DNA of 36,438 nt from Desulfuromonas sp. (GTDB lineage: Bacteria; Desulfobacterota; Desulfuromonadia; Desulfuromonadales; UBA2294), in contig PKUH01000117.1 in assembly GCA_002869615.1 (NCBI GenBank), forward strand, positions 16,634-53,071, read 5' to 3'. The notes beneath the pieces were generated by a model that had not been told where the DNA came from, did no database searches, and saw only the letters and a program-made list of their open reading frames with translations. The position numbers and the translations under genes were made by a program. This document shows, one piece after another, positions 20,138 to 31,888 of the stretch. How positions within the stretch are numbered: position 1 is the stretch's first letter; every line of letters begins with the position of its first letter.

Positions 20138-21019
20138 GTGGATTTTTTTATGCTTGCACTGCAGCCAAAACAGGTCAAAATTTTCGTACTCGCTTCAATC
20201 TGCATCTGCGGACTGTCAATCGGGTATTTTTGCGCACAATTGGCCGGGGTCCTGTTGCAACCGGAGGAAGCCTCTGGTCCGGCAGCCGGCAATACCGACC
20301 GCGCCGGTACGCCCCGAACTGTCGCCGTTGACACCGGCCTGATCCTCGACAGAAACATATTCGACCCGGCGATGCGCGGCCAGGAACAGGAACCGGAGCA
20401 ACCGGCTCGCGAAACCAGCGCTCCGGTGAACGTCGTGACCGCCAGCGACCTGAAACTGTTCGGTACGGTCGACGGCGGTAATGATCCGCTGGCGCTGATC
20501 GAGTCTGGCGGCAAGGTCAAGGTCTACCGCATCGGCGACGAAATCCCGGGCGGCGGGCAACTTTTGGAGGTTTCGCGCAACGAGGCGATTATCACCCGTG
20601 CCGACGGCAGCCGGGCGAAACTGGTTATCGTCAAGCCGGAGCTGGCAAGCACCGCAAGAACCTCGACACCGACCGGCGGCGGTATTCGCAGTCTCGGCGA
20701 CAACCGCTGGACGGTGGCACGCGATGAAGTCGAAAAAGCCCGAAGCAACCTCAACCAGCTCCTCAAGTCTGCCCGCATGGAACCGAATATCGTCAATGGA
20801 CAGACCGAAGGGTTTATCGTCAAGATGGTCCGGCCGAAGTCGCTGCTGGCCCAGCTCGGCATCCGCCGCGGCGACAAGGTCAGGCGGGTCAACGGCGTCG
20901 AACTCAACTCGCAGGAGAAGGCTCTGCAGATTTTTCAGCAGCTGCGTGAGGCCAAACGTTTAACAGTCGACCTCGAGAGAGGAAACGAAAACCTGACCTT
21001 TGATTATGAAGTCAACTAG
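20138..21019 (+). CDS. gspC: Type II secretion system protein GspC
   Basis: Inner-membrane protein that links the assembly platform to the secretin. A short cytoplasmic N terminus leads to one membrane segment (about 14-40), a periplasmic homology region (about 65-165, with ILDRNIFDP and LKLFGTV) and a C-terminal PDZ domain (about 205-290, with KSLLAQLGIRRGDKVRRVNGVEL). The length of 293 residues is normal. The start is ambiguous: GTG at 20138 or ATG at 20150 (289 residues); neither has a strong ribosome-binding site. First gene of the operon, 31 nt before gspD. Confidence 0.9.
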   Translation: MDFFMLALQPKQVKIFVLASICICGLSIGYFCAQLAGVLLQPEEASGPAAGNTDRAGTPRTVAVDTGLILDRNIFDPAMRGQEQEPEQPARETSAPVNVVTASDLKLFGTVDGGNDPLALIESGGKVKVYRIGDEIPGGGQLLEVSRNEAIITRADGSRAKLVIVKPELASTARTSTPTGGGIRSLGDNRWTVARDEVEKARSNLNQLLKSARMEPNIVNGQTEGFIVKMVRPKSLLAQLGIRRGDKVRRVNGVELNSQEKALQIFQQLREAKRLTVDLERGNENLTFDYEVN

Positions 21020-21050: not shown

Positions 21051-22961
21051 ATGACGTATCGTGTTCTCCGGATATTTGTTCTGGCATGCCTTGTATGGGG
21101 GATCGCTTCAAGCGCTCTCGCCGCCGAACCGCAGGCCGAAGGGATCGCCATCGACTTCCGGGATGTCGAGCTCACCGATCTGATCCAGACGATCAGCGAG
21201 ATGACCGGCAAAAACTTTATTTACGATGACACCCTGAAGGGAAAGGTCAGCATCATCTCCCCGGAAAGGATGTCGCCGGATGAAGCATACGAGGCCTTCC
21301 TTTCGGTTCTCAGCGTCAAGGGGTTCACCCTGGTGCCGACCGGCCGGACCAACAAGATCGTTCCGATCCGCATTGCCAAGGAGAGTAACCTGCCGACCGG
21401 AACCACGGTCCCTTCCGGCGAACAGTACGTCACCCAGTTGATCCGGATGAAATATGTCGATGCCGGCGACCTGGCGACCGCGGTGCTCAAGGATCTGGTA
21501 CCGAAAACCAGCCATGTCGCTGCTTACGGTCCGTCGAACACCCTGATTATTACCGACAATGCGGCGAACATCGAGCGGCTGGTCCAGATCATTCGCCAGC
21601 TCGATGTGCCGACCACCCTCGAACAGATTGAGATTATTCCGTTGCAGTATGCCGGCGCCGAAGAGCTGACCGATATCATCACGCAATTGCTGAGTCGCGG
21701 CGCTGTCACCCCGGCCGCACGCGGCCGGAGAGCAGCCCAGGCAGCCCAGGCGGGTGACAGCGAGACGACCCGGGTCATCCCGTATCCCCGGACCAATGCC
21801 CTGATCGTCATTGCCGCCAAGGGCGAACTGCAGACGATTCGCAGCCTGGTTGAGCAGCTTGACCAGTCGCCGCCGGACGACCGTTCCTACATAAATGTCT
21901 ATTACCTTGAGAATGCCGATGCGACCAGCCTGGCCGGCACCCTCAACGAAATCCTTACCGGAATCAGCCAGAAGGCGCGCCAGGAACGCACCGCCCAGAA
22001 TACACAGCAACCGGTCAACCTGAAGCAGGTGACCATTACCGCCGACAAGCCGACCAATTCCCTGGTCATCAACGCCCGGCCGGAAGAGTTCGAGATCATC
22101 AAGTCGATCGTTTCCAAGCTCGACATCAAGCGCAAACAGGTCTTCGTCGAGGCGCTGATCATGGAGCTGTCGCTTGATGCGACCAAGAATCTCGGTATCT
22201 CGATCGTCGGTGCCGGTGCCAACCGGGATGGTGACGGCGGTATTATCGGCGGCAGTAACCTGAATTCGAACCCGACGACCAACGCCGTCAACCTGACCGA
22301 TTTCCAAGATGACGGATCTGGCATCCCGTCGGTTCTCGGCAAGGCGGTCAACGGCCTGATGGCCGGCGGTTTCCTTAACCCGACGACGATTACCGGGCCC
22401 GATGGGATCGATATCACTGTTCCGGCTCTTTCGGTGCTGATCGACCTCTCGCAGTCGGACGGCGACGTCAACATCCTGGCGGCACCGCGGCTTCTGACCT
22501 CCGATAACGAGGAGGCCGAAATCATTATCGGGTCGAACATCCCGGTCATCACTGAACGATTGACCGACACCGGCGGTTCCGGCGGTCTCGCCCAGTCGGT
22601 TTCGATCGAGAGGCAGGATGCCGCCCTGACCCTCCGCTTCACGCCGCAGGTCACCGAGGGAGATGAAGTCCGGCTCAACATCCATCAGGAGATCACCGAC
22701 GTTGCCTCGACCAATGACCAGATCGGACCGACCCTGACCAAGCGGCTGCTGCGCAACACGGTGATCGCCGAAAACGGTCGAACCATAGCGCTCGGCGGCC
22801 TGATCAGCACCAATATTCAGGACACGATCACCAAGGTTCCGTTACTCGGCGACATCCCGATTCTCGGCTGGCTCTTCAAGCGTAAGGATGTGATTGAGAA
22901 GAAAACCAATCTTCTGATTTTCATTACACCGCACATCATCCGCACCGCCGATGACCTTTAA
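21051..22961 (+). CDS. gspD: Type II secretion secretin GspD, ended by an in-frame stop before the usual C-terminal tail
   Basis: A 636-residue outer-membrane secretin that forms the export channel. A signal peptide (about 1-22, SSALA) precedes N0-N3 periplasmic domains (about 25-350) and the secretin domain (about 390-630, with the conserved VPLLGDIPILGWLFK near the end). The ATG at 21051 has AAAGGAG upstream; the longer frame to 21000 starts with TTG and lacks one. The protein stops at RTADDL with TAA (22959-22961). The reading frame continues for 47 codons that resemble the GspD tail (see next entry), so this may be a truncation or a split gene. Confidence 0.95.
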   Translation: MTYRVLRIFVLACLVWGIASSALAAEPQAEGIAIDFRDVELTDLIQTISEMTGKNFIYDDTLKGKVSIISPERMSPDEAYEAFLSVLSVKGFTLVPTGRTNKIVPIRIAKESNLPTGTTVPSGEQYVTQLIRMKYVDAGDLATAVLKDLVPKTSHVAAYGPSNTLIITDNAANIERLVQIIRQLDVPTTLEQIEIIPLQYAGAEELTDIITQLLSRGAVTPAARGRRAAQAAQAGDSETTRVIPYPRTNALIVIAAKGELQTIRSLVEQLDQSPPDDRSYINVYYLENADATSLAGTLNEILTGISQKARQERTAQNTQQPVNLKQVTITADKPTNSLVINARPEEFEIIKSIVSKLDIKRKQVFVEALIMELSLDATKNLGISIVGAGANRDGDGGIIGGSNLNSNPTTNAVNLTDFQDDGSGIPSVLGKAVNGLMAGGFLNPTTITGPDGIDITVPALSVLIDLSQSDGDVNILAAPRLLTSDNEEAEIIIGSNIPVITERLTDTGGSGGLAQSVSIERQDAALTLRFTPQVTEGDEVRLNIHQEITDVASTNDQIGPTLTKRLLRNTVIAENGRTIALGGLISTNIQDTITKVPLLGDIPILGWLFKRKDVIEKKTNLLIFITPHIIRTADDL

Positions 22962-23105
22962 ATGATCACCAACAAGTCGCGGGCAGCGATGGAGCGCTAC
23001 CGGAATGAGAAGGTTAATTTCGACCAACCGGTTCAGCAGATCGAAAATGATCTGAACGGCGACCCGGTCGAACAGACGATCGACGAAGACATCCAGAGGA
23101 ACTGA
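22962..23105 (+). CDS. In-frame continuation of gspD: detached C-terminal tail, or very small protein
   Basis: Forty-seven codons directly follow the gspD TAA in the same frame, beginning with ATG (TAAATG) and ending 7 nt before gspE. The peptide starts MITNKSRAAMERYRNEKV and is charged. In other secretins the segment after the final beta strand has a comparable shape (a few residues, then a K-Y/R-R-x-E basic helix, as in E. coli GspD). This suggests it is the native tail cut off by one substitution. No ribosome-binding site precedes the ATG; reinitiation at TAAATG is possible. A sequencing error would also explain it. Confidence 0.6.
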   Translation: MITNKSRAAMERYRNEKVNFDQPVQQIENDLNGDPVEQTIDEDIQRN

Positions 23106-23112
23106 AGATCCG

Positions 23113-24804
23113 ATGAGCTGGAAACTTCTTGGCGAAATACTGCAGGATGATTTTGACGTTGCGGCAGCAGCGATCGATAATGCCCTGGTGTCGCAGCAGG
23201 CGAATCCCGAGCCGCTCGGCAAAATCCTCCGGCGTGAGATCGCCCTGCCGGAAACAACCCTGGCACAGGCCCTGGCCATTCAGCAGGGGTTGACCTTTCT
23301 CGAAAGCATTCCGGCTGACAGCGACAACGAGGAATTGCTGCAAAAGATGCCGATCTCTTATGTTCGGGAACATCTCATCTATCCGCTGGCGATATCCGAA
23401 GACAATCTCGAACTGGCGCTCGCTGATCCGGGACGGGATGAAGTAATCAATGACCTCGCCGCCCTTTACCAGCGCCCCCTGCAGCTGTATGTCGCCACCG
23501 AGGGTGAAATCCGGCAGGCGATCAACCGGCACTTCGAAAAACATTCCGAGCAGGCCGACAAGGTCATGGTCGATATCGGCGCAACCAATGAGCAGGACAC
23601 ATCGCTTGAGGCGAGCGACCTGATTGACTCCTCGGATGAAGCTCCGATCATCCGTTTCGTCAACAGCCTTCTGACCCAGGCTTACAAGCAGAAGGCAAGC
23701 GACATCCATATCGAACCGGCGGAAGGATCACTCTTTGTCCGCTACCGGATCGACGGCATCCTGCACGAGGTTTTGCAACCTCCGATAAAGGCGCACTCGG
23801 CGATCGTCTCCCGGATCAAGATCCTGTCGCATCTCGATATTGCGGAAAAGCGCCTGCCCCAGGATGGCCGCTTCGATGTCCAGATCGCCGGCAAGAAAAT
23901 CGATATCCGCGTTTCGGTGTTGCCGACCGATCTTGGTGAACGGGTCGTGCTGAGGCTGCTCGATCGTTCTGATGATCTACTGTCGCTCGAGGAACTCGGC
24001 CTGGCTGATAAAAGCCTGAAATCGGTCGAATCGATGATCAGCAAAAGCCACGGAATCTTCCTGGTCACCGGCCCGACCGGTTCGGGCAAAACGACAACCC
24101 TGTATGCCGGACTGATCCGCCTCAACGATCGCGAGAAGAATATCATCACGGTCGAGGATCCGGTCGAATACCGATTGGCCGGAGTTGGCCAGATCCAGGT
24201 CAATCCCCGGATCGACCTGACCTTTGCCGCCGGCCTGCGCTCGACCCTGCGCCAGGACCCCGACATCATCATGGTCGGTGAAATCCGCGACGCCGAAACC
24301 GCTACAATAGCGGTACAGTCGGCCCTGACCGGCCATATGGTCTTTTCAACCCTGCATACCAACGATGCCGCTTCGGCCCTGACCCGACTGGTGGAAATGG
24401 GCGTTGAACCATTTCTTGCCGCCTCCTCGATTGTCGGCATTCTGGCGCAACGCCTGGTACGTAAGGTCTGTGCCGATTGCGCCGAAGACTACAAACCGGA
24501 TCGCCAACTGATCAGAGAGGCCGGACTGGCTGACCTGATCCCGGCAACCGCTACCCTGAAGCGTGGCATCGGTTGCGAAAAGTGTCATGGCAGCGGCTAC
24601 CGCGGCCGGGTCGGCATCTTTGAACTGCTGACCATGACTGATTCGATCCGGGAAATGCTGCAGGCCAAGAATGATGCCGCCGCGATCCGTAAAAAAGCGA
24701 TAGAAGAAGGGATGACGCCGCTCCGGGAATCGGGAATCAAGCGCATCCTCGCCGGAGAAACAACGCTCGAAGAAGTTCTGCGCGTCACCCAGGAGGAGAC
24801 CTGA
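23113..24804 (+). CDS. gspE: Type II secretion ATPase GspE
   Basis: A 563-residue cytoplasmic AAA-like ATPase that powers pseudopilus assembly. An N1E/MshEN-like domain (about 1-140) is followed by N2E (about 170-290) and the ATPase core. Walker A GPTGSGKT is at 320-327, Walker B-like DPDIIMVGEIRD at 382-393, and the Asp/His box STLHTNDA at 412-419. A zinc-binding tetracysteine is present (Cys453, Cys456, Cys488, Cys491). All catalytic motifs are intact. The start has only a weak upstream GAAG. Stop and gspF start are separated by 1 nt. Confidence 0.97.
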   Translation: MSWKLLGEILQDDFDVAAAAIDNALVSQQANPEPLGKILRREIALPETTLAQALAIQQGLTFLESIPADSDNEELLQKMPISYVREHLIYPLAISEDNLELALADPGRDEVINDLAALYQRPLQLYVATEGEIRQAINRHFEKHSEQADKVMVDIGATNEQDTSLEASDLIDSSDEAPIIRFVNSLLTQAYKQKASDIHIEPAEGSLFVRYRIDGILHEVLQPPIKAHSAIVSRIKILSHLDIAEKRLPQDGRFDVQIAGKKIDIRVSVLPTDLGERVVLRLLDRSDDLLSLEELGLADKSLKSVESMISKSHGIFLVTGPTGSGKTTTLYAGLIRLNDREKNIITVEDPVEYRLAGVGQIQVNPRIDLTFAAGLRSTLRQDPDIIMVGEIRDAETATIAVQSALTGHMVFSTLHTNDAASALTRLVEMGVEPFLAASSIVGILAQRLVRKVCADCAEDYKPDRQLIREAGLADLIPATATLKRGIGCEKCHGSGYRGRVGIFELLTMTDSIREMLQAKNDAAAIRKKAIEEGMTPLRESGIKRILAGETTLEEVLRVTQEET

Positions 24805-24805
24805 G

Positions 24806-26017
24806 ATGCCGCTCTTCTCCTACGTCGGTTTCGACTCGGCCGGCTCGCGGGTCTCCGGTACCATTGAGGCGGCCGGGCGTAATGGCGCTCTCGGTCTCTT
24901 GCGTGACCGCGGCATCTACCCGACCGACGTCGCCGAAGAGAACAATGCCACCAGCAGATCCCGACGGCGACTCTTCACCCGCCGGGTCAGTCCACTCGAC
25001 CTGGCGACAACCACCCGGCAGCTGGCGACCCTGCTCGGCGCCGGCGTCCCGTTGAACGAAACCCTGGCCACCGTCGGCGAGCAGCTGGAAAGCCAGCAGA
25101 TGCAACGGGCGATCGAACGGGTGCGTGACCTGGTCGTTCAGGGCGAGGAGCTACACGCGGCGCTGGCGACCGAAGAGAGGATCTTCCCCGAACTCTACAT
25201 CAACATGGTCGCCGTTGGTGAAAGCGGCGGCGATCTCGACAAGGTCCTGGAACAACTGGCCGACTACTACGAAGAGGCGGCCCGCATCCAGGCAAAAATC
25301 CAGGCCGCCCTGACCTATCCCCTGCTGATGGCGCTGATCGGCAGCGCCGTCCTTTTTTTCCTGATCACCTTCGTCCTGCCGAAAGTGACCCGGATGCTCG
25401 AGGAGATGGACCGCGCCCTGCCCTGGCCGACCGCCGTGCTGATCGGCGGCAGCAATCTGCTCGCCGAGTGGTGGTGGTTGCTGTTGATTGTGTTGGGCGG
25501 CGGCCTGTTTGCCTTGCAGCGTTATCTCAACAGCCCGGCCGGCCGGCTCTGGTTCGACCGCCGACGTCTGCAGTTGCCGCTTTTCGGCAAGCTCTCCCTG
25601 CAACTGGCAACCGCTCGCTTCGCCCGCACCTTGGGCGCCCTGACCCGGGCCGGCGTCGCTTTGCCAAAGGCCCTCGAAATTTCATCCGGGCTGCTCGATA
25701 ATCGACTGTTGCAGGGGACCATAGAAGAGACGGTGGTCGCCGTCCGCGAAGGAGAGAGCCTGGCCGGTTCAATTCAGCGCAGCGGCCATTTTCCAGCGAT
25801 GCTGACCCGGCTAATCGCCGTCGGTGAAAAAAGCGGCAAGCTCGATGTGATGCTGCTGCGCGCCGCCACCACCTATGAACAGCAGTCGGAGCTGACCATC
25901 GGCAGCCTGCTCGCCCTGCTCGAACCGCTGATGATTCTTTTCATGGGCTGCAGTGTCGGCTATATCGTCATCGCCATCCTGTTGCCGATATTTGAGGCGA
26001 GCTCGGGATTCGGATAA
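24806..26017 (+). CDS. gspF: Type II secretion inner-membrane platform protein GspF
   Basis: A 403-residue polytopic protein of the inner-membrane platform. It has the usual two tandem GspF/PilC domains (about 65-190 and 265-390) and three membrane segments (about 168-195, 218-240 and 370-395). Motifs such as RQLATLLGAGVPL and ARTLGALTRAGVALPKALE mark the paired repeats. The ATG at 24806 follows AGGAGGAG. It is the last gene before the inverted-repeat insertion that separates it from gspG. Confidence 0.96.
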   Translation: MPLFSYVGFDSAGSRVSGTIEAAGRNGALGLLRDRGIYPTDVAEENNATSRSRRRLFTRRVSPLDLATTTRQLATLLGAGVPLNETLATVGEQLESQQMQRAIERVRDLVVQGEELHAALATEERIFPELYINMVAVGESGGDLDKVLEQLADYYEEAARIQAKIQAALTYPLLMALIGSAVLFFLITFVLPKVTRMLEEMDRALPWPTAVLIGGSNLLAEWWWLLLIVLGGGLFALQRYLNSPAGRLWFDRRRLQLPLFGKLSLQLATARFARTLGALTRAGVALPKALEISSGLLDNRLLQGTIEETVVAVREGESLAGSIQRSGHFPAMLTRLIAVGEKSGKLDVMLLRAATTYEQQSELTIGSLLALLEPLMILFMGCSVGYIVIAILLPIFEASSGFG

Positions 26018-26203: not shown

Positions 26204-26635
26204 ATGAATATTAAAGATCAACGCGGATTCACCCTGATCGAGATCATGGTCGTGGTCGTTATCCTCGGTGTCCTCGCGGCACTCGTTGTCCCCCGTTTCC
26301 TTGATCGACCGGAAGAGGCACGCCGGACCAAGGCGACGGTCGACATCAAGTCGATCGAGGAGGCCCTGGCCCTGTTCAAACTCGACAATGGCTTCTTCCC
26401 GTCGACCGATCAGGGATTGAAAGCCCTGGTCGAGAAGCCGGAAACCGGACGGATCCCGGCAAAATTCGCCGCAAATGGTTATCTGAAAAAGGTACCGGTC
26501 GATCCATGGGGAGCAAACTACGTCTACTTGTCACCCGGTGCTCATGACACCTACGACATCATCTCGTACGGTGCCGACGGCGAACCGGGAGGTGAAGGGA
26601 ACGATGCTGACATCGAGAGCTGGAACCTCAACTGA
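26204..26635 (+). CDS. gspG: Major pseudopilin GspG
   Basis: A 143-residue major pseudopilin forming the shaft of the secretion pseudopilus. A short leader MNIKDQRG is cut before FTLIEIMVVVVILGVL, with the conserved Glu at +5; the hydrophobic N-terminal helix is also the polymerisation segment. The C terminus carries the calcium-binding region (SYGADGEPGGEGNDADIESW). The ATG at 26204 follows AGGAGCTGAAAT. It overlaps the start of gspH by 32 nt. Processing needs a prepilin peptidase, which is not in this window. Confidence 0.97.
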   Translation: MNIKDQRGFTLIEIMVVVVILGVLAALVVPRFLDRPEEARRTKATVDIKSIEEALALFKLDNGFFPSTDQGLKALVEKPETGRIPAKFAANGYLKKVPVDPWGANYVYLSPGAHDTYDIISYGADGEPGGEGNDADIESWNLN

Positions 26636-27119
26636 ATCGGGCTTCACCCTGATCGAGCTGACCCTGGTGATCGCCCTGCTCGGGCTGCTGCTCGGACTGG
26701 TTATTCCGAAGCTGCCGGCGATCGGCGAGAACCGGCTCGAGGCAACGGCGCGGCGAATCGCCGGAATGGTCCGATATCTTTACAACGAGGCGGCGCTGAG
26801 CGGTCTCGAACACCGGCTCGCCTTCGACCTTGACAACAACAGCCTCGGCGGACGCAAACTCGACCCCGACGGCGAACTGACGGTGGTGACCGACAGCGGT
26901 CGTGACCACGAACTCGGCGGCTCGGTTACGATTGTCGATGTCTCGGTTCCGGGAAAGAACAAGGTCACCAGCGGCCAGCTGTTCAGCAGGATCTTTCCGG
27001 TCGGCTGGATGGAGGAAACGGTTATCCATCTCAAAAACAGCAACCGGACCTTGACCCTGCACCTGCAGCCACTGACCGGCGTGACCGACGTACACGAAGG
27101 ATACAAGGAGTTCGACTGA
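26604..27119 (+). CDS. gspH: Minor pseudopilin GspH
   Basis: A 171-residue minor pseudopilin. A 13-residue leader ends at Gly before FTLIELTLVIALLGLLLGLV, with Glu at +5. A globular beta-rich domain follows (VTIVDVSVPGKN, FFPVGW-like SRIFPVGWMEE). The ATG at 26604, inside gspG, was selected because GGAGG and AAGGGA precede it; an upstream ATG at 26538 would give an implausible leader. The overlap implies translational coupling with gspG. Confidence 0.9.
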   Translation: MLTSRAGTSTESGFTLIELTLVIALLGLLLGLVIPKLPAIGENRLEATARRIAGMVRYLYNEAALSGLEHRLAFDLDNNSLGGRKLDPDGELTVVTDSGRDHELGGSVTIVDVSVPGKNKVTSGQLFSRIFPVGWMEETVIHLKNSNRTLTLHLQPLTGVTDVHEGYKEFD

Positions 27120-27146
27120 GCCGACTGGCATCAGCTGAAGGAGCAA

Positions 27147-27563
27147 GTGATTTTGACCAGGTTCGATACGGAAAACAGCAGGGAGCGGGGACAGAGCGGG
27201 CAGCCTTCGGGGCAGCCTGGTTTCACCTTGCTTGAAGTTGTCATCGCGCTGTTGATTGTCGCCACCGTGCTCGTCTCGCTTCTCGGTCTGCAGGCGCGAA
27301 CGATCAATGCGGCCGATCGGCAACAGAAGCTCACCATGGCGACAATGCTGGCACAGCAGCAGATGAGCGAGACAGAATTGAACTACGCCGCCAACCAGAG
27401 TGGAGATGAAGGGACATTTGAGCCGCCCTATGATAATTACCGCTGGCAGGTCGAATTCAACACGACGCCGCTGGCTGCGGTTCGCGAAGTGACCGTAACC
27501 GTCGCCTGGGGCGAAGCAGGGAGCAACGAGGATGTCACGTTGACATCCTTCCTTTTCAATTGA
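27147..27563 (+). CDS. gspI: Minor pseudopilin GspI
   Basis: A minor pseudopilin of 138 residues if the GTG at 27147 is used. The cleavage site is Gly before FTLLEVVIALLIVATVLVSLLG, with Glu at +5. The leader is long, about 25 residues, and contains a short repeated SGQP. AAGGAG (27138-27143) is only 3 nt before the GTG but 9 nt before a TTG at 27153, so the latter may be the true start. In known systems GspI nucleates the tip complex with GspJ and GspK. It overlaps gspJ at TGATG. Confidence 0.9.
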   Translation: MILTRFDTENSRERGQSGQPSGQPGFTLLEVVIALLIVATVLVSLLGLQARTINAADRQQKLTMATMLAQQQMSETELNYAANQSGDEGTFEPPYDNYRWQVEFNTTPLAAVREVTVTVAWGEAGSNEDVTLTSFLFN

Positions 27564-28168
27564 TGCAGATGCGAAGCGACAGCGGTTTGACCCTGGTTGA
27601 GCTCCTGGTGGCACTGACCGTGACCGCCCTGATGCTGACCGCCGTCTACCAAACGGTCAGTTCGGCTTCGATCGCCCGGGAAAAGCTGGCTGTCAGCAAT
27701 GCCCGGCACCACATTGCCCGGATCGTGACTGAACGGATCGGGCGCGAGCTGCTCAGCCTGCATTATGTCGCTTCCGACGAACGGACCCGGTTCAGTGGCG
27801 GTCTCGGCGGCGGTGATATGGAGCTTCTTGTTTTTACGACGACGGCGAGCACACCGCTGGCCCGTGAGCCAGGTCTTCCGGCACGGGTTGTTTATCGACT
27901 CGAGGTTGACCGGGATGCCGACGATAACGCCTATCGGCTGACCCGGACCGAAACAAGCGCTCTTGATTTTGACACCGGTCGAGCCTATCGACTGGCCGAC
28001 GGTTTGTCCGAAATCGAGATCTCTTTTTTGAACAACGGTGACTGGTTAAACCGATGGGACTCGCTGTCGACGCAAGGTTTACCCGAAGCAGTCGCACTAT
28101 CACTGCGGTTTGGCGATATCGAAACCGGCAATGATTTCCGAACGGTCTGGACAATCGGTGATGAGTAA
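27563..28168 (+). CDS. gspJ: Minor pseudopilin GspJ
   Basis: A 201-residue minor pseudopilin, larger than GspH and GspI as usual. A short leader (MQMRSDSG) precedes LTLVELLVALTVTALML with Glu at +5. The first ATG overlaps the gspI stop as TGATG; a second ATG at 27569 is possible. The globular domain ends with FGDIETGNDFRTVW. It forms the pseudopilus tip with GspI and GspK in characterised systems. Confidence 0.92.
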   Translation: MQMRSDSGLTLVELLVALTVTALMLTAVYQTVSSASIAREKLAVSNARHHIARIVTERIGRELLSLHYVASDERTRFSGGLGGGDMELLVFTTTASTPLAREPGLPARVVYRLEVDRDADDNAYRLTRTETSALDFDTGRAYRLADGLSEIEISFLNNGDWLNRWDSLSTQGLPEAVALSLRFGDIETGNDFRTVWTIGDE

Positions 28169-29089
28169 ATGAATCTTCAGATCCGAAAAAATGAACGGGG
28201 CATGGTCCTGCTGGTCGTACTTCTGGTTGTCACCCTGCTGGTGACAATCCTGGTAGAGTTTTCTTTTTCAACGCTGGTCGATCTGCGCCTCGCAGAAACC
28301 TTTCGCGACACGACCCGGGCGACCTACCTGGCAAAAGGAGGAATCCGGGCCGGCCAGATTATTCTGCAGGATGATACAAACGGCTATGATGCCGCGGACG
28401 AACTCTGGGCCCAGGGGATCGAGGGCTACCCGGTCGGCAGCGGCAACATCAGCATCATGGTGGAAGACCACGGCGGACGCCTTGATCTGAACCGTCTGGT
28501 CACGGCAGCCGGCAATATTGATCCGCTGTTCAAGGACCGGGCAATCCGGCTTTTCGGACTGCTCGGTGCACCCGCTCCGGAGCAGATGACCGATGCCCTG
28601 ATCGACTGGATTGATCCCGATGATCAGATTGAGCCGGGCGGCGCCGAAAGCAATTATTATCGTTCGCTGGCGCAGCCCTACAACTGCAAGAACGGCCCAC
28701 TCGATAGTATTGAAGAACTGCATCTGATCACGGGCTTTGAGCGTTCTTTCATTGCACAACTGAAACCGCACGTCACAACCTACGGTTCGGCCAAGGTCAA
28801 CGTCAACACTGCAACCACGGAAGTGCTGCAGACTCTGGTCGCCGAAATGGACCAGATTACGGCCGAGCTGATTGTTGAAGCGCGGAGGGCGAAACCCTTC
28901 ATGTCGCTGAATGAGCTGAAAGAGCTGCCGGGGATGGAAACAATGTACGGTTTCGTATATCTTTATCTTGATGTCAAAAGTTCACGCTACATGGTCGAGG
29001 CGACCGCTTTTGTCAATGACGGACGCAGAACCATCCACGCCAACATCGCCAAGGATGGAAACCGTATTCTTTACAAGAGAGTTCTTTAA
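28169..29089 (+). CDS. gspK: Tip pseudopilin GspK
   Basis: A 306-residue pseudopilin, the large tip protein. The leader MNLQIRKNERG precedes MVLLVVLLVVTLLVTILV. The Glu normally found at +5 is absent, which is characteristic of GspK. The large soluble domain has the GspK signatures DHGGRLDLNRLV, DALIDWIDPDDQ and NYYRSLAQPYNCKNGPLDSIEEL, and a helix-hairpin-helix-like KVNVNTATTEVL. It starts directly after the gspJ stop and shares one base with the gspL start (TAATG). Confidence 0.95.
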   Translation: MNLQIRKNERGMVLLVVLLVVTLLVTILVEFSFSTLVDLRLAETFRDTTRATYLAKGGIRAGQIILQDDTNGYDAADELWAQGIEGYPVGSGNISIMVEDHGGRLDLNRLVTAAGNIDPLFKDRAIRLFGLLGAPAPEQMTDALIDWIDPDDQIEPGGAESNYYRSLAQPYNCKNGPLDSIEELHLITGFERSFIAQLKPHVTTYGSAKVNVNTATTEVLQTLVAEMDQITAELIVEARRAKPFMSLNELKELPGMETMYGFVYLYLDVKSSRYMVEATAFVNDGRRTIHANIAKDGNRILYKRVL

Positions 29090-30486
29090 TGGCCAGAACG
29101 TTTATAGGTGCTGATATCGACAACGGTCTTTTGCGGATGGTCGCTCTTGAAGAAGAGAGTGGCGTCCTCAAGCCGGTTGCCCTTATCCAGAGAGAGGCTG
29201 CATCAACCGAGGCATGCGCCGCCATGATTGCCGCAATTCTGGCAGAGTGGGATTCGACCAACTCCCGACTGGCCGCAGCCCTGCCGGCATCGGTCGGCCT
29301 GACTCGCAACCTTGAATTCCCTTTCGGCGACCGTAGAAAAATCGCGTCGGCCGTTCCCCTGGAGCTCGGTGCCCGGCTACCGATCAGCCTTGACGATTAT
29401 TTTGTCACCTCACTTGATCCGGTGGCGTCGGAAAATCAGGGTTACCAAACCACCGGCCTGGCGGTTCCGAAAGAAACCATCACCGATTTTCTCGACCCAT
29501 TTAACAATGAGCAACTGCCGTTACGTCATCTCGGAATCTTGCCGTTTGCCTATGCCGATGGATTCGTCGGGCTGCCGGACGAAGCGATTCTGCTCGATAT
29601 CCGTTCACATGAAATTTCTTCACTGCTTTTGCACCATGGTCAGCCCCGGGGCCATCGGATTCTGATCCGCAGCGATATCCGATCAGCGTCTGAAACGATC
29701 GCCCAGATCGGTCGCGATATCCACACCCTGCAGAAACGGGTCGGCCGCGACAATCTGCCGATCCGGATGTTCGGCCCCGGGCTTGATAAAGAACTTGAGG
29801 AAGCGATCCGTGCCGAATTCCCGGAGGCAGAAATTCCGGAAGAGTATTTTGAAGGAGAACGCCTGGCACCTGAATACATCCCGGCCCTGGCCCTGGCTCG
29901 ACTTGCCGCTAAACCGCGCAGAAGCTACAATTTGCGACAGGGAGAATACGCTTATAGGGGCAGCCTCGCACCCTATAAAAAACAGCTGATCGCCATTACG
30001 GCGCTGCTGTCGATAGCGTTGACGACGCTGATCGGTGGCGCCTGGCTTGCCTATACCGGCAAGGCGGCGATTGCTGATCAAATGCAAAAGCAGATGCAGG
30101 AGATTTATCGGCAGACCTTTCCCCGGGCAAATGAAACCCCGAAAGATGTTCTGCTGCACATGACCAGCCGCCTCAATGCAGCTCGCAACAGGAGCAATCA
30201 GTTCGGAGCCCCCGGGGCCGGGCCATTACCGACGCTGGCCGCTATTTCAAAAGCTCTGCCGGAAAACAGTTCGACTGTTATCGAGGAGCTCAATTATGAT
30301 GAAACCGGAATCCGTCTGACCGGCAAGGCACCGTCGTTCGATACGGTTGACCAGCTTGCTGCGGGGCTCGGCAAAAGCACTCTTTTCAGTTCGCCCCGGA
30401 TCGGTCAGGCCAAAACCAGTATCGACGGCAAGCAGATCGAATTCCGGATTGACCTCGGGTTCGCCGGCAAGGAAGGTGCGCAATGA
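29089..30486 (+). CDS. gspL: Type II secretion protein GspL
   Basis: A 465-residue inner-membrane protein that couples the GspE ATPase to the platform. The N-terminal cytoplasmic actin-like region (about 1-290, starting TFIGADIDNGLLRMV) is PilM-like. One membrane segment (about 302-324) follows, and a periplasmic ferredoxin-like domain completes the chain (about 380-465). Its start overlaps the gspK stop by one base and its stop overlaps the gspM start by 4 nt. Length and order agree with the family although sequence conservation of GspL is generally low. Confidence 0.88.
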   Translation: MARTFIGADIDNGLLRMVALEEESGVLKPVALIQREAASTEACAAMIAAILAEWDSTNSRLAAALPASVGLTRNLEFPFGDRRKIASAVPLELGARLPISLDDYFVTSLDPVASENQGYQTTGLAVPKETITDFLDPFNNEQLPLRHLGILPFAYADGFVGLPDEAILLDIRSHEISSLLLHHGQPRGHRILIRSDIRSASETIAQIGRDIHTLQKRVGRDNLPIRMFGPGLDKELEEAIRAEFPEAEIPEEYFEGERLAPEYIPALALARLAAKPRRSYNLRQGEYAYRGSLAPYKKQLIAITALLSIALTTLIGGAWLAYTGKAAIADQMQKQMQEIYRQTFPRANETPKDVLLHMTSRLNAARNRSNQFGAPGAGPLPTLAAISKALPENSSTVIEELNYDETGIRLTGKAPSFDTVDQLAAGLGKSTLFSSPRIGQAKTSIDGKQIEFRIDLGFAGKEGAQ

Positions 30487-31010
30487 TAAAGGACCTGAGC
30501 CAACGGGACAAGGCGGCCCTGATCGGTGGTGCGATTATTCTTTTCGTTCTGTTTTGCGTCTTCGGAATTGTTTTGCCCTATCGCTCAGCCATCGAGAATC
30601 TTGAGCTGGAAATTTCATCCGGAGAAAAACAGCTGGCCGAACTCAGGCAGCTGCAACAGGACTACAGGGTTCTGCAAAGAGACCTGTCCCGGCGTGAACA
30701 GAAGCTGGCCCGGGGCGACAATGCTTCATCCTTCTCGTCTATCGAGGCGATTGTCACCCGACTCGGGATGCGAGACAAGCTGGCTTCGATGCAACCGCAA
30801 CCGGCCAGCGTACGCGGCGAAATGTCGGTTGAAATTGTCGCAACGCGGATTGAACGCGTTGATCTCGGTCAGTTGATCAACCTGTTGCGGGCATTTGAAT
30901 CTTCCCCGACACTGCTAAATGTCACCAGTATGAAAATCAGAAAGCGTTTCGATGATTCAAGCCAGATTGATGCCGAACTCCGAATTGAAACACCAAAGCC
31001 AGGTTCCTGA
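30483..31010 (+). CDS. gspM: Type II secretion protein GspM
   Basis: A 175-residue bitopic inner-membrane protein, partner of GspL. A short cytoplasmic start (MIKDLSQRDK) leads to a membrane segment (about 12-34), a coiled-coil-like stretch (about 38-75) and a periplasmic ferredoxin-like domain (about 85-170). The assignment rests on topology and position between gspL and gspN. The start overlaps gspL as ATGA; the stop overlaps gspN as TGATG. Confidence 0.85.
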   Translation: MIKDLSQRDKAALIGGAIILFVLFCVFGIVLPYRSAIENLELEISSGEKQLAELRQLQQDYRVLQRDLSRREQKLARGDNASSFSSIEAIVTRLGMRDKLASMQPQPASVRGEMSVEIVATRIERVDLGQLINLLRAFESSPTLLNVTSMKIRKRFDDSSQIDAELRIETPKPGS

Positions 31011-31888
31011 TGAGAAACAGACTTAAAAACCTGAGTCAATATCTGCCGTTAAATCTGAGTGGAGTTGCGGCCATCCTTGGATATGTTTTTCTCGGACTGA
31101 CCATGGTCCTGCTCGGGCTGTACCTTGCCTTTCCGGAAAAAGCACTTCAGCGCCGACTCGAATTTGAACTGAACAGGAATATCTCCGGCGCCGTCTCGGT
31201 TAAATCGGCGGCGCTTTCATTGCCATTCGGCTTGACCGCCAGGGATATCCGGATCAGGATGAACGACCGGTCGATTCCGCAAATCTTTTTTGATTCGGTT
31301 GAAATGTCGCCCCATATTTCGGCCCTCTTCGGCAATCCGGGAATCAGTTTTAACGCCCGGACCGGCGACGGAAAAATCAGCGGCTCGGTAAAACAGCGCG
31401 GGCCAGCCGAGATCGACATTGATAATTATCTGTTCGATGAGCCGATTCAGCAATTTTCCGGATTAAAGATCAAAGGCGTCATCCGCTCGGCCCGCCTTGA
31501 AACCGAAGTTCCGACCCAGCCTGACAGCCGAACCAGAATCGAGGTCGTGGCCGAGAACCTGAATCTGACAGGGCTCGAAAAGGTCGGCTTTTCAGCTGCA
31601 GAGGTCGCCCTCGGCAACCTCGAACTGACCCTGAATGGACAAGGGCGCAAGCTTGACCTGGAGAGAGCCTCACTGAGCGGCGGCGACATTCGGGCCTCAC
31701 TGAGCGGCAACCTCTCATTCGGCCGGTCATTGCCGGCGACCCGGTTAAACCTGACGCTCCAGGTTCAGCCCACAACCGGGCTCGACCAGTCGCTCCGTTC
31801 GCTGTTTGACCTGCTCGGTTCCGCCGGTCCGGATGCCTCCCGCAAATTGACGATAAGTGGCTCCCTGGCCAGACCGAATATCAGATAG
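31010..31888 (+). CDS. gspN: Type II secretion protein GspN
   Basis: A 292-residue protein with one N-terminal membrane segment (about 19-42) followed by a periplasmic region. The pattern (VKSAALSLPFGLTARDIRI, DRNLSG-like repeats, LTISGSLARPNIR at the end) resembles AsmA-like beta proteins. This fits the GspN type seen in deltaproteobacterial and Leptospira systems. Its role is not established; it is dispensable in some species. Last gene of the secretion operon, 93 nt before lon. Confidence 0.85.
   Translation: MRNRLKNLSQYLPLNLSGVAAILGYVFLGLTMVLLGLYLAFPEKALQRRLEFELNRNISGAVSVKSAALSLPFGLTARDIRIRMNDRSIPQIFFDSVEMSPHISALFGNPGISFNARTGDGKISGSVKQRGPAEIDIDNYLFDEPIQQFSGLKIKGVIRSARLETEVPTQPDSRTRIEVVAENLNLTGLEKVGFSAAEVALGNLELTLNGQGRKLDLERASLSGGDIRASLSGNLSFGRSLPATRLNLTLQVQPTTGLDQSLRSLFDLLGSAGPDASRKLTISGSLARPNIR

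Follow-up and report, generated by a model that had tools for sequence, protein, structure and literature searches.

A private in-frame TAA separates gspD from its S-domain tail in a draft Desulfuromonas genome

The window, a 36,438-nucleotide stretch of a contig from an environmental bacterium of the Desulfuromonas type, contains a type II secretion operon that is complete from gspC to gspN and is followed by lon. All genes of the operon are open except gspD, which is closed by an in-frame TAA at 22959–22961, as seen in both the sequence and its translation. This stop had been claimed in an earlier note on the same DNA and is indeed present. The features of the locus are as follows.

20138–21019, + strand: gspC, intact (NF041515 GspC_delta, above cut-off)
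21051–22961, + strand: gspD up to the in-frame TAA, with signal peptide, N0, N-domains and secretin domain, 636 aa (Pfam, TIGR02517)
22959–22961, + strand: private in-frame TAA, predicted to lie within the first turn of the S-domain helix (sequence; C-module model of a relative)
22962–23105, + strand: S-domain tail of gspD, 47 codons and a TGA, in the same frame and coding-like (homology, GC3, pN/pS)
23113–24804, + strand: gspE, intact (TIGR02533, above cut-off)
24806–26017, + strand: gspF, intact (TIGR02120, above cut-off)
26204–31888, + strand: remaining type II secretion genes, namely gspG, a gspH-like pseudopilin gene, gspI, gspJ, gspK, gspL, a gspM-like gene and gspN, all open

The gspJ/gspK junction of this operon is itself TAAATG (window 28166–28171), with zero gap as at the gspD stop.

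The portion of gspD before the stop contains the Pfam domains N0, Secretin_N (three copies) and Secretin, and this portion alone matches TIGR02517 (type_II_gspD) with 515.7 bits against a cut-off of 351.35, over positions 1–595 of the 600 in the profile. The full-length TIGR02517 match, the N0, Secretin_N repeats and Secretin domain, and the position between gspC and gspE all identify the gene as gspD; its S-domain is encoded in frame but 3′ of the TAA. An ATG (22962) lies immediately 3′ of the stop, from which the gspD frame stays open for 47 codons (22962–23102) until a TGA at 23103–23105, leaving 7 nt before the gspE ATG at 23113. The translated frame reads ...ITPHIIRTADDL*MITNKSRAAMERYRNEKVNFDQPVQQIENDLNGDPVEQTIDEDIQRN*, where the asterisks are stops. 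The earlier description of 47 open codons that start with ATG and end 7 nt before gspE is exact, and the 151-nt gap it reported between gspD and gspE is likewise correct (22962–23112). The length of this open run is not rare by itself, since at least 47 open codons follow the stop in 21% of 467 long ORFs of the sampled genome, mostly because another gene follows; it is through homology that the run in gspD stands above chance. Searched by itself, the 47-residue tail has no match in Pfam or NCBIfam. A frameshift at the CTTTAAA sequence was considered and rejected, as inspection of both the +1 and the -1 reading showed no conserved tail. Only reading across the stop therefore restores the GspD tail.

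The tail aligns without a change of frame to the intact GspD C-terminus of the one further genome known here for the genus (G001, L004; MERYRNEKVNFDQPV / MERYRTEKINFDQPV), where GspD runs through the stop position as RSADDLDRLTQRSRELMERYRTEKINFDQPVEALEQDMNGYSDET... The window's tail also has the threonine present without exception in 32 relatives. Wherever the contig of a relative extends this far, the secretin domain is followed by a tail, mostly of 40 to 90 residues. The codon aligned to the TAA in 77 non-identical relatives specifies mainly Ala, Glu, Asp, Ser or Thr, and is never a stop. When 136 genomes of the order were searched with the whole frame (E≤1e-100), 101 were matched, and a stop lies inside the match in the window's genome only; at the gspD position none of the other 100 matching genomes has one. 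The segment past the stop had been likened to a GspD tail before, which the alignment with intact relatives bears out, and none of the relatives aligned at the stop ends at DDL, as the earlier note had allowed that they might. Judged by these alignments, the 47 residues are the genuine C-terminal (S-) domain of GspD.

The tail also has the composition and substitution pattern of coding sequence. Its GC3 is 0.77, against 0.76 in the body of the gene. In the comparison of the window with the sister species, the tail has a pN/pS of 0.36, against 0.24 for the body; body stretches of like length give about 0.05–0.5, so that the value of the tail falls within the range of the looser stretches. No indel separates the tail from the sister species over 33 aligned codons. 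These coding-like properties indicate that the interruption is recent, or artificial, and the tail has thus evolved as protein essentially throughout the time since the split from the sister species.

The place of the stop within the S-domain was estimated from structure. The intact same-genus GspD aligns with E. coli K-12 GspD (5WQ7) into the tail. An AlphaFold model of the C-module of this same-genus protein has a mean pLDDT of 65.5, rising to about 70 to 80 in the region relied on here, and predicts a helix at residues 313–331; the stop would map to residue 317, in the first turn. Foldseek searches with this model rank solved type II secretins first, but the medium confidence of the monomer keeps the TM scores poor; only the placement of the helix was taken from the model. 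The Ala-Phe pair in helix alpha-12 of the S-domain, a motif linked to the pilotin dependence of secretins (PMC6532946), is absent in the 47-residue tail and in the same-genus tail. The suggestion of the earlier note that loss of the tail could alter targeting through the pilotin is therefore unsupported. It is more likely that loss of the S-domain would affect assembly and function through the packing of the helix on the neighbouring subunit. In Aeromonas, removal of the whole S-domain from ExeD results in poorer assembly and less secretion, neither being abolished; lipase reaches about 60% of wild type late in growth, and the authors assign a function to the helix touching the neighbouring subunit (PMC6532946).

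The gspD stop is not the only one of its kind in this assembly. Orthologues were compared between about 0.9 Mb of the window's genome and 0.7–0.86 Mb of the sister genome. In four of the 121 orthologues (46,223 codons) a lone in-frame stop lies between near-identical flanks. One is gspD, and the other three are AcnA, with a TAG in a strongly conserved stretch (L115:4548, contig C3), a PilT-family ATPase, with a TGA (L116:6739, contig C4), and a sigma-54 response regulator, with a TAG between its receiver and ATPase domains (L116:10737, contig C4). Read across its stop, each of the three gives a full-length family match. Together with gspD they involve all three stop codons, which argues against the recoding of one codon. 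The interrupted AcnA is the sole AcnA-type match above cut-off in the genome; it may not be essential, AcnB-type aconitase being outside the search. The interrupted PilT has three intact paralogues elsewhere. The three extra stops per about 46,000 codons extrapolate to roughly 60 per genome, with a wide interval. The reverse comparison gave one clear lone stop of the sister genome in 139 orthologues, at least one per about 50,000 codons. Lone stops in the sister draft were seen in a TetR-like regulator and an ABC-F-like ATPase (L136:17871 and L206:13615), named from a look at the sequence only.

An interior TAA also occurs in a single-domain response regulator (LDLHFP*EDG; L125:7695, contig C13); a second response-regulator match (C57) was left out of the count, natural stops at the domain end being suspected. 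Antisense frames and neighbouring genes dominated a first coding-score scan, and a stricter scan with the intrinsic coding score recovered PilT and the sigma-54 regulator in a noisy output. Counts of HATPase_c matches with a stop inside were rejected as evidence, as such matches occur in drafts and closed genomes alike; it is suspected that natural stops ending this often C-terminal domain were counted in.

Stops in several strongly conserved and otherwise intact genes, the only AcnA included, make a consensus sequence error the leading explanation, and on balance we lean towards it over a real and very recent mutation. The gene would then be an ordinary gspD, about 684 codons at full length, within a type II secretion operon that is complete in all other respects; one sense codon of gspD would read TAA in the draft through a wrong consensus base, and the living organism would produce normal GspD with its S-domain. 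GspD, GspE and GspF have one private substitution each at near-invariant columns, most relatives having none, which hints at a raised load of substitution errors in the assembly. Against an error, the contig is 53 kb long, and completeness and contamination of the assembly are 98% and 0.27%. The substitution class that fits the stops in AcnA, PilT and the sigma-54 regulator accounts for 40% of expected stop-making changes anyway. Nor do the marks of recency decide the matter, as a coding-like tail and a private stop fit a nonsense mutation equally well. That such a mutation arose very recently in the strain or population, leaving a GspD that ends at DDL without the S-domain, is a serious alternative that we hold to be the less probable. 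The other single stops of the genome could likewise be real pseudogenes, and the extra lone stops are compatible with these or with strain variation. Secretins without an S-domain exist, for instance the PilQ-like secretin of this genome (L002), which ends ITPRIIE*, and a gspD nonsense mutant would survive, since ExeD without the S-domain is partly functional (PMC6532946). Were the mutation real, as it may be, the barrel would still fold and would assemble poorly, and type II secretion would be weakened rather than abolished. However, a technical cause is suggested by the similar stops in conserved genes, the only AcnA among them, and retention of the S-domain in every relative whose contig reaches it indicates that its loss is selected against.

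Two further readings take the TAA as real and the tail as translated, and both are far less probable than error or mutation. Programmed or tolerated read-through, with a minority of full-length GspD mixing into the 15-mer, is very unlikely. The tail is in frame and coding-like, and one study reports that apparent read-through of in-frame stops is widespread in prokaryotes (PMC7918605); nevertheless, the gspD stop recurs in none of the other 100 matching genomes of the order, and sharing among relatives is the main test of that study. Genome-wide recoding of TAA is rejected, since 171 of 472 long ORFs (36%) in the sampled genome end normally with TAA. A TAA followed by A is not known to be a leaky context, and the window contains no tRNA gene; the genome has 41 tRNA matches. 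Termination at the TAA with reinitiation at the adjoining ATG, giving the S-domain as a separate 47-residue protein, is less probable still. It would draw on the TAAATG juxtaposition, found too at the gspJ/gspK junction, and on the fact that Met directly follows the stop position in none of the 77 relatives. However, that position is Leu in five relatives and Thr or Lys in some others, mostly one base from Met, and no Shine-Dalgarno sequence precedes the ATG at 22962, whereas gspD, gspE and gspF have purine-rich upstream sequence. The tail also has no hydrophobic segment, its best 12-residue mean being -0.8 against +2.7 for the GspD signal peptide, so that it would stay in the cytoplasm, unable to follow the exported secretin, and a split GspD occurs in none of the relatives. 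A mixed-subunit secretin, built from truncated GspD and S-domain-bearing GspD made by read-through or reinitiation, with assembly tuned by the efficiency of termination, is correspondingly improbable. Of the four options listed in the earlier note, recent nonsense mutation and sequencing or assembly error stand, and the split secretin and read-through do not. Nothing here is new in kind, as the error and recent-mutation readings are both ordinary.

The case serves mainly as a warning. In a draft genome, a single stop close to the 3′ end of a gene looks like truncation, splitting or recoding, but elsewhere in this assembly unrelated conserved genes are interrupted in the same way. The gspD stop would also escape annotation with family models, because TIGR02517 ends almost exactly there. 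Compared with known type II GspD (TIGR02517; 5WQ7, XcpQ 5WLN and PulD 6HCG), the gene has the same signal peptide, N0, N-domains and secretin domain, an S-domain in the interrupted frame, and the operon order C-D-E-F-G onward; it differs in the TAA at the start of the S-domain helix, found in this draft sequence only. The in-frame stops collected in PMC7918605 are likewise lone stops in conserved and otherwise coding-like genes, but those kept were common to two or more species so as to limit artefacts, whereas the gspD stop belongs to a single genome. A further comparison is with the S-domain deletion of ExeD in Aeromonas hydrophila (PMC6532946). If the TAA is real, the product would be a similar barrel without the S-domain, and the locus would be a natural counterpart of that engineered deletion, whose effects were measured, whereas the truncated product here is predicted from sequence alone.
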